Below are positions 7,601-10,600 of a stretch of 64,000 nt of DNA, piece after piece. The stretch covers positions 11,650,275 to 11,714,274 of the forward strand of contig NC_134032.1 in assembly GCF_964204645.1 (NCBI RefSeq), written 5' to 3'. Under the pieces are notes generated by a model, which saw nothing but the letters and a program-made list of their open reading frames with translations, was not told the DNA's origin and ran no database searches. Both the position numbers and the translations under genes were made by a program. How positions within the stretch are numbered: the first letter of the stretch is position 1; every line of letters starts with the position of its first letter. Source of the DNA: Tubulanus polymorphus (lineage: Eukaryota; Nemertea; Palaeonemertea; Tubulaniformes; Tubulanidae).

Positions 7601-10600
7601 AATCGTACGAGGGCGTGAATTTATACGTGAAAAATCTGGATGACGGAATCGACGACGAACGATTGAGGAAGGAGTTCCAACCGTACGGAAATATCACCAG
7701 CGCCAAGGTAAAGAACCGTCTTACGTACCAAGATTCATTTTTGGGGCGTTATTATGGGGGGAGATTTGATCAGGATGTTCAGGAATTTTCTCAACATTAA
7801 AAAAGGTCAGGGAATTTTGTAAAAAGCTAAAAATCAGGTTTTACCAGTGACAGATATATCAAAGTCTGGGTTAACTACGTACATGTCCTGGAATTCAAGA
7901 GGTTTCTGTGCTTCCTTAGACACCAATGTACACCCTGGAATTTCTGTGCCATTTATCAGAAAAGTTCCTCCTAAATACATTGGAAAATTAAGTCGTCCGA
8001 TTCGTAATGGAGTGCGGTTTTACATTGTCTAAAGATCTCAATATTTGACTTCACTCTGAGCATGGATGTACATCCAATTTGTTTCTGGTGTCAAAATTGT
8101 CCTTGTGATGCAGCTTGGCTTATATTAATGGATCAAAATCTAAAGTGAAATTACAGGTTAATTTTTAGGGAGTTTCTTAAGCAAACTCTTGGATGAGACA
8201 TTAGTTGAGTTATTAAAACGTATTTTTGATCGTTTTTATTCAAAGGGAATTGTTGCGTGATTTTTGTAGGTTATGCGTGACGAGAAAGCTGCCTCGAAGG
8301 GATTCGGATTCGTGTGTTTCAGTTCTCCGGAGGAAGCGACGAAAGCCGTCACCGAGATGAACGGTCGTATCATCGTAGCGAAACCTCTCTACGTCGCTCT
8401 CGCTCAGCGTAAAGAAGCTCGCAAAGCGCAGCTGGCGTCGCAGTATCTGCAGAGATTGGCTAGCATGAGAATGCAGGTATGTGTCTCTTTGATGTTCACT
8501 TGTCGGTAAGATTGAATATACAGTTGAGTGCTATGGAATTACCCTGGTATATAATATGGTTGGTCTACGTGACTGATATTGCGGCAAATGCATTGCAAAA
8601 ACGCGCCCTTATGGGCCTCCATATAGTGGAAAGTACTTCTTTCCGAGTCAAAATGTCCTTCTTTTGGGTCTTAAATTGTCGAAAAGTCCTTCTTTGTACT
8701 CCTTTTTACCCTTGCCTTACCACTGGAAACCCTGTTTATTGATATAGCGCGTCCTTCCTAGTTAATTGACTGCTCGGACAATGTTTCTTCCATCCCAGTT
8801 CTATGTCTCACTTTAATACTGCCCTTATCTCCTCCCACTCTCTTACCCCTTATTATGGTACGGCTCTTCACCAGCTCCCTTCGCTTTGCACTGTACCCCT
8901 GGCCCATGTTATCCTAACTGACCGCGTTTCCCTAATCCGACTTCGATTACTAAGTTTGGTATCGTAAATCATTATGAATGATGATATATTATCGACGGGC
9001 GGGCTGAAAAAAACAATGCTGATAGTCGATATCTATCTGACATGAAAAGTGAAAAATACTCATTAATTATTTACGACGAACTATCCCCTTCCTGCCTACA
9101 CTGTCGGTCACTATCTACTTTCAATGAAATCTTTTAAATTATTGCCTGTCTCCTCAAATTAAATGATGAATGATGATACAATAACGACGGGCGGACTGAA
9201 AAACAATGCTGACTGTCGTAATCTAATCTGACATCTTAAAAGACATTAACATCGGGTGATTCTGTTAGTATCAGTCATCAGATGTTTCCGGATCGGAAAG
9301 GATTCCGCTAGCTGTCAGATAATTTTAACTCGTAACGACTATAGAACTTGATCGGAAAATGATCTTTGTTAAGAAATCCCATGTTGCAATTATGTTTTCT
9401 GAATTGTAGAATCAACAGTTGGGACAGATATTCCAACCAGGCGCCACCGGTTACTTCATGCCGACAGTTCCTCAGGCTCAGAGGGGATATTATACGCCGC
9501 AGATGGCTCAGATGAGACCGGCTCAGCCGAGATGGCAGACAGCTACTCAAATGAGACCTCAACAGGCTACAGGTTAGTTCAGATAACTAAATTCACCGTG
9601 TCCGAGTACGGCTATTCAAATATTACATCGAATTAATGATTCTTGGTTATTCGCCGGTGTAGGTTTCCAAGCAATGCCCGGAAGTCAAGTTCGTCAGGTC
9701 CGACCGACTCAACCATCAGCGATGCAACGCACAGCAGCCAATGCTCGCCCGATCACCGGGCAACAGCCGCAACAGAGATCGGCAATGCCCGGACCAACAC
9801 AGGTTCGACCTCAGTCTCAGCTCGTACAGCCGAGACCGCCGTTCAAATATACGCAGGCCGTACGCAACCCGCAGGCACCAGGAATGGATCCTAATATCCC
9901 GCAGAGGGTAAGTTTTAATCAGTGTAGTGAATTACATATTTATAGCATGATGATACACAATCGACGGGCGGGCTAAGAGTTTCTACTGCTGAATGTCGAT
10001 TTTCTGACTTGATGTCGAATATTTTCATTGAATTACTGTCCTTTCGGATTTTTTTTTTTGTGGAATCTCATGATTTTTCTGCTATTGCAGGTTTTGCAAC
10101 AGGCCGTGCACGTACAGGGCCAGGAGCCTCTGACCACCTCGAAACTCGCATCTGCCCCGCCTCAGGAACAAAAACAGATGTTGGGCGAACGTTTGTTCCC
10201 GATGATTCAGAAGATGTACCCGGATTTGGCTGGTAAGATCACCGGTATGTTGCTGGAGATCGACAACGCCGAGTTGTTGCACATGTTGGAATCGGAGGTT
10301 TCTCTGAAAGCCAAGGTATGTGGGATTTCTTAGTCAGCGTCTTGATTGACCAGAACTTGGGTACCTTTAGGGTGGCCATTGACCTGGAAAATTGGGGAAT
10401 CAGAAAACTAAAATTTTGTTAAGAATAAGAAAACTGGGAAATGTGGATAATCTCGTGGTGAAAAGTGGCCACCCGGTTATAAATCAGAACATTTCCATAT
10501 CAAACTCGAACACGCTCCGAGGCCCTCATTCTGAAAAAAGATATTTTGCAAATGTCATGCCACTCCTAATTTTGCATAATGGCCACTACAGCCAAACTAT

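Follow-up and report, generated by a model that had tools for sequence, protein, structure and literature searches.

Three U43-type box C/D RNAs in introns of a poly(A)-binding protein gene of the nemertean Tubulanus polymorphus

We analyzed a 64,000-nucleotide (nt) stretch of DNA from the nemertean Tubulanus polymorphus (contig NC_134032.1 of assembly GCF_964204645.1, positions 11,650,275 to 11,714,274 of the forward strand; hereafter the window). It holds a complete gene for a cytoplasmic poly(A)-binding protein (PABP) and, within two introns of that gene, three elements with the layout of box C/D small nucleolar RNAs (snoRNAs), here called n1, n2, and n3 (Table 1). The nine coding exons of the gene join into a 625-residue protein with no internal stop, which contains four RRM stretches and one MLLE domain and matches three PABP sequences of the PDB at E <= 1e-50. 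A first-pass annotation, made from the letters of this DNA, had named PABP as the host and placed three C/D RNAs with a 10-base guide between 8972 and 10012; host, range, and RNAs all held up. It was silent on the sharing of one intron by n1 and n2, on a decayed fourth copy, and on a putative internal helix, which are described below.

All three elements carry the boxes of the C/D class (C box ATGATGA and D box CTGA), the same C' box (TGCTGA), and a D' box one base 3' of the guide, which reads CTGA in n1 and n2 and CTAA in n3. The guide CGACGGGCGG occurs exactly at three places in the window, all on the + strand and all within these RNAs. With up to one mismatch allowed, five matches were found against 1.19 expected, a count that none of 100 shuffles reached. 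The joint pattern of C box (RTGATGA), GACGGGCGG, and D box (CTGA) occurred three times on the + strand of the window, not at all on its - strand, and never in 200 dinucleotide shuffles. When the three copies were aligned, every guide column (10/10) and every C/D box column (11/11) was invariant, as compared with 21/44 of the other columns (one-sided Fisher p = 9e-6, the copies being related). Moreover, a search of the animal's own genome (267.8 Mb, 77 contigs) with TGATGAN{3,14}GACGGGCGG, an exact pattern that is blind to diverged copies with an altered guide, returned just the three places in PABP introns, and its reversed control returned none. Terminal stems of five pairs in n1 (one of them G-U) and four pairs in n2 recur in whole-RNA folds, whose z scores against shuffles are -1.98 for n1 and -2.76 for n2.

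The position of the guide points to a single target. In all three copies GACGGGCGG lies directly 5' of D' with one-base spacing, an arrangement that fits the functional definition of SNORD43/U43, and the fifth base upstream of D' (D'+5) is a G that pairs with the bracketed C in CCG[C]CCGUCG. We judged this pairing on a conserved stretch of ribosomal RNA (rRNA) whose last G is presumed; the 18S stretch that we take to hold the target is CCGCCCGTCG. In a 1541-nt E. coli 16S gene, the C that follows CCG has position 1401, which we equate with 1402 in the standard numbering of 1542 nt, if this copy is short of one base. Published equivalences place human Cm1703 together with yeast Cm1639, E. coli m4Cm1402, and P. 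abyssi Cm1376 (PMC7005279), and a table in PMC8817022, in which E. coli does not appear, lists Dictyostelium Cm1715 and Arabidopsis Cm1641 at the same 18S site, with snR70, U43, and AtU43 as guides. The selection of the methylated C of human Cm1703 by D'+5, as claimed in the first-pass annotation, is borne out by guide and spacing in all three copies and by this site equivalence. Judged from their sequences, the three RNAs most likely direct methylation at one ancient decoding-centre position, a C near the ribosomal P site that is modified in all three domains of life (m4Cm1402, Cm1703; PMC7005279).

Together, these features make it highly probable that n1, n2, and n3 are functional U43-type box C/D snoRNAs whose D' guide directs the methylation equivalent to Cm1703, with PABP as the only place of the exact pattern. 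We infer their transcription and processing, the methylation itself, and the conservation of the target in the animal's own 18S rRNA. The RNAs would leave the transcript together with the PABP introns, undergo trimming, and assemble with fibrillarin, Nop56, Nop58, and the 15.5K protein, as is general for the C/D class. A 10-bp duplex of the D' guide with 18S CCGCCCGUCG would then direct 2'-O-methylation to the C opposite the fifth base upstream of D', which corresponds to the P-site Cm1703 of human 18S. Duplication within the host gene is the probable origin of the three copies.

Several observations weigh against this reading. The Rfam model SNORD43 (RF00221) aligns at full length with all three RNAs, with scores of 26.1 bits for n2, 20.7 for n1, and 18.3 for n3 that lie below its gathering cut-off of 45 bits; at gathering score, Rfam gave no match in the window. 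Genome-wide, none of the 67 places scored among 40652 first-look candidates rose above the cut-off, and the best copy (26.1 bits, E 0.28) ranked fourth, after places of 28.6, 27.1, and 26.4 bits. Sub-threshold matches also arose in bacterial and archaeal control genomes. In n3, the D' box is degenerate, and the terminal stem, judged by eye, is a weak one of three G-U and A-U pairs beside a C-C mismatch. Finally, 369 nt separate the end of the D box from the 3' splice site in n1 and 178 nt in n2, beyond the short distance usual for vertebrate C/D RNAs, which n3 alone fits with 83 nt. The whole-RNA z score of n3 (-0.46) means that its fold is no better than shuffles; an external stem was considered for n3 and rejected, as the fold of 9916-10041 was no better than shuffles either (z -0.20).

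The genome search with RF00221 was itself not discriminating, with 12 places up to E 10. The highest-scoring of them (28.6 bits) aligns through a stretch that is rich in GACAGACG and has no C box, and neither GACGGGC nor ACGGGCGG is present on either strand at the three places that outscore the best copy. Among eight of the 12 places that we inspected, the guide was found only in the PABP locus (L063), GACGGGC only in L065, and neither in the other six. The U43 covariance hit that the first-pass annotation had named as a check was thus obtained only below the cut-off, with three other places of the genome scoring above the best copy. The score neither proves nor excludes membership, and it is the guide, the D' position, and the C' box that identify these RNAs: by sequence, the copies are U43-type in guide and architecture, and they are not RF00221 members by score.

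The best-surviving alternative, which we consider unlikely although it deserves weight, is that function is limited to one or two copies, the others being duplicates in decay. It would account for the CTAA box and poor terminal stem of n3 and for the distance of n1 from the 3' splice site, and it has a precedent in the window, where a truncated tandem duplicate of PABP (aligned pieces at 14520-19929), which lacks the first exons and is shortened in its C-terminal region, carries a fourth, decayed copy in the corresponding intron. This relic retains its C box and has lost the guide, the D box, and the putative internal helix; Rfam gave no match on the duplicate up to E 10. All three RNAs of the intact gene, in contrast, keep guide and boxes without change despite the divergence of their other columns, and each can form six or seven pairs of the putative helix, with two-sided changes at two of its seven positions. 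The relic is 65% identical to n2 (48/74 aligned positions), whereas three compared exons of gene and duplicate are 92-99% and two introns 91-92% identical (one intron with 134 gap columns). Divergence is thus greater in the relic than elsewhere in the duplicate, which gene conversion of those other parts could explain. As other introns of the duplicate align poorly with the intact gene, the patchy identity along the duplicate suggests that such conversion may itself have been patchy. The decayed copy shows a snoRNA lost after duplication of its host.

A second alternative, for which we see only a small chance, is that n1 and n2 also or instead yield a snoRNA-ended long non-coding RNA (sno-lncRNA) of about 264 nt (8972-9235). 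The two lie 119 nt apart (9046-9164) in a shared intron. PMC11028025 describes sno-lncRNAs as a possible product of introns with two snoRNAs, and one snoRNA per intron as the predominant arrangement in animals; nothing in the sequence, however, requires such a product. That three similar, close copies are a repeat family formed by chance, or a mobile repeat that happens to include the guide, is scarcely credible given the shuffle counts, the mere three exact places in 267.8 Mb, and the selective conservation of guide and boxes over other columns.

We turn next to the host, which differs from that of human U43, as the first-pass annotation had stated. It had placed human U43 in an RPL3 intron, and PMC6466398 indeed places SNORD43, with target 18S-C1703, in RPL3. 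T. polymorphus has its own RPL3, seen as four Pfam matches in a row on contig C4 and a fifth, weaker one on contig C3. The 6.5 kb inspected around the C4 matches (L059), a span that may exclude the last exons of the gene, contain five other C/D-like RNAs and no U43, and the exact combination of C box and U43 guide was absent outside PABP in the whole genome. Residence in RPL3, a trait of the human-type U43 gene, was not found within these searches; hosting does not define the U43 RNA itself. The RNA is ordinary; its genomic address is unusual. Published work offers parallels: according to PMC2653536, a single chicken gene carries two U43 copies in its introns 3 and 6, and three introns of chicken PABPC4 harbor an H/ACA RNA, and snoRNA families are described as switching hosts (PMC3511168). 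No U43 in a PABP gene was reported in the titles and abstracts that we searched on U43 hosts, PABP-hosted snoRNAs, and mollusc or invertebrate reports. The change of host would be a well-resolved case of snoRNA mobility of the kind that PMC3511168 describes, with RPL3 remaining a snoRNA host.

Comparison with known guides for this site places the three RNAs more closely. They share GACGGGCGG and the selection of the same C by D'+5 with SNORD43/U43 (RF00221), which forms clan CL00059 with yeast snR70 (RF01238). Human RNU43 contains GACGGGCGG and the C' box TGCTGA, followed by two bases and GTCA (PMC3561390). Like the window copies, human U43 is intron-encoded, has a similar core length, and continues TGCTGA with two bases and GUC; it differs in reading GTCA rather than GTCG after the C' box, in its host, and in not being present, as here, in three copies of which two share one intron. 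Chicken U43 (GGgCD29; PMC2653536) likewise has more than one copy in the introns of a single host, but it has two copies, in introns 3 and 6, and its host is listed as chr1_11.94. The Rfam family snoR07 (RF01585), which we presume to be a plant family, bears a guide, GCGAUGGGCGG, before D' that fits the same rRNA stretch with one U-G pair; it is a longer RNA and scores 25.4 bits to n1 against a cut-off of 44.

Archaeal C/D small RNAs (sRNAs) also carry a guide for this conserved rRNA stretch. Of 45 pattern loci with GACGGGCGG, 13 were archaeal by label (L001, L004, L006, L011, L013, L025, L030, L031, L035, L036, L041, L043, and L045); the 32 labelled bacterial were dropped, as were three loci from an IMG/VR pattern scan that showed the same printed stretch. 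Unlike in U43, GACGGGCGG precedes box D rather than D' in the archaeal RNAs, with CTGA just upstream of the second TGATGA in 11 of the 13, judged by eye, a difference relevant to the question of orthology or convergence between U43 and the archaeal sRNAs for this site. When five of them were compared with Rfam, L013 passed the sR60 threshold (51 vs 50 bits) and the others matched sR1 or sR2 below cut-off; sR12 scored 27 bits with L013 (cut-off 38). In PMC3511168, snR70/SNORD43 is the sole case found by the authors' own search in which an archaeal sRNA (sR12) guides the equivalent site, and the published comparison of the clan with sR12 is described without clear structural conservation.

The window copies share one further feature, a putative internal helix that joins the guide's 5' part and the bases upstream of it to the start of the spacer between C' and D. 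Six or seven of seven pairs form in n1, n2, and n3, as opposed to four of seven in human U43, and the 3' arm is equidistant from the C' box in all four. Sliding this arm by one to eight bases either way reduced the summed pairs from 24/28 to at most 14. The snoR07 consensus can form the same helix, GAGCGAU:AUCGCUU, with seven of seven pairs including one G-U, an arm there picked by fit. Because MAFFT misaligned the C' region of n3 in a six-row alignment, the register was set by hand; the C' box served as anchor in n1-n3, human, and the relic, and best fit decided for snoR07. Over n1-n3, human, and snoR07, two-sided changes occurred at four of the seven pairs, one of them owing to the human sequence only and another to snoR07 only; within the window copies they occurred at two of seven, and a covariation test on the three copies was equalled by 56 of 500 shuffles. 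In a shuffled-spacer test on the longest run of pairs, p was 0.006 for n1, 0.165 for n2, and 0.012 for n3; it was 0.018 for the RF00221 consensus (0.33 with G-U allowed) and 0.075 for snoR07 (0.002 with G-U).

As the sequences are few and partly related, an internal helix in U43-type RNAs is plausible but unproved. A broader proposal, which we put forward tentatively and hold less probable than its opposite, is that the helix is a conserved trait of the U43 class: the C'-D spacer would copy the GUCG of the rRNA and mask the 5' part of the guide, so that the rRNA would have to displace a built-in target mimic before methylation, in keeping with two-sided changes across this animal, human, and snoR07. 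Computed energies were -5.6 to -7.2 kcal/mol for the helix arms of n1-n3 and about -23 kcal/mol for guide and rRNA, the latter on the presumed rRNA stretch, and the rRNA is therefore expected to win. Should the helix prove real, the RNA that guides a near-universal modification of the ribosome would contain a mimic of its own target. Archaeal sRNAs were considered as a test and set aside, since a guide before box D does not bear on this helix; no GUC arm was seen by eye in their other guide. Our literature search on internal stems in guides returned nothing beyond yeast snR190, for which PMC8536666 describes a potential stem in which box C' and downstream sequence pair with part of the antisense element. 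There, unlike here, the stem includes box C'; the target is a different one, 25S G2395, which was found unmethylated, and mutating the stem brought no methylation, according to the same source.

Table 1. Positions of the host gene, the three C/D RNAs, and associated features in the window
Feature	Position	Strand	Remarks
Host gene, cytoplasmic PABP	4645..10808	+	complete, 9 coding exons
PABP coding exons	4645-4837, 5604-5797, 6421-6699, 7399-7707, 8270-8476, 9410-9572, 9663-9907, 10091-10315, 10746-10808	+	
Intron hosting n1 and n2	8477..9409	+	GT...AG, 933 nt
Intron hosting n3	9908..10090	+	GT...AG, 183 nt
n1, C/D RNA	8972..9045	+	C box to D box 8978-9040, 63 nt
n1 parts		+	stem arms 8972-8976 / 9041-9045; C box 8978-8984; guide 8993-9002; D' 9004-9007; C' from 9017; D box 9037-9040
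n1 putative helix, 5' arm TATCGAC	8990..8996	+	overlaps guide 5' end; pairs with 9025-9031, 7/7
n1 putative helix, 3' arm GTCGATA	9025..9031	+	repeats GUCG of 18S target
n2, C/D RNA	9165..9235	+	C box to D box 9170-9231, 62 nt
n2 parts		+	stem arms 9165-9168 / 9232-9235; C box 9170-9176; guide 9185-9194; D' 9196-9199; C' from 9207; D box 9228-9231
n2 putative helix, 5' arm TAACGAC	9182..9188	+	pairs with 9215-9221, 6/7
n2 putative helix, 3' arm GTCGTAA	9215..9221	+	
n3, C/D RNA	9941..10011	+	outer ends approximate; C box to D box 9947-10007, 61 nt
n3 parts		+	C box 9947-9953; guide 9962-9971; D' 9973-9976 (CTAA); C' from 9987; D box 10004-10007
n3 putative helix, 5' arm AATCGAC	9959..9965	+	pairs with 9995-10001, 7/7
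n3 putative helix, 3' arm GTCGATT	9995..10001	+	
Decayed fourth copy	18593..18651	+	matching intron of PABP duplicate; model R1 24.1 bits, E 0.0052
TATATATA	4327-4334	+	upstream of CTCTTC
Candidate TOP-like start CTCTTC	4358..4363	+	31 nt from first base of TATATATA

The first-pass annotation had also given the host a start like that of terminal oligopyrimidine (TOP) mRNAs. A candidate motif is there, CTCTTC downstream of TATATATA, and is compatible with a TOP start. In the presumed 5' untranslated region of PABP, an A-rich stretch at 4458-4510 is reminiscent of what we take to be the autoregulatory A-rich element of PABP mRNAs. Upstream of PABP, several C2H2 zinc-finger coding stretches lie in a row at 519-2503 and are perhaps alternative terminal exons of one gene; two of them were run against Pfam, and both matched. 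Nuclear-receptor and G-protein-coupled receptor domains are also present in the window.
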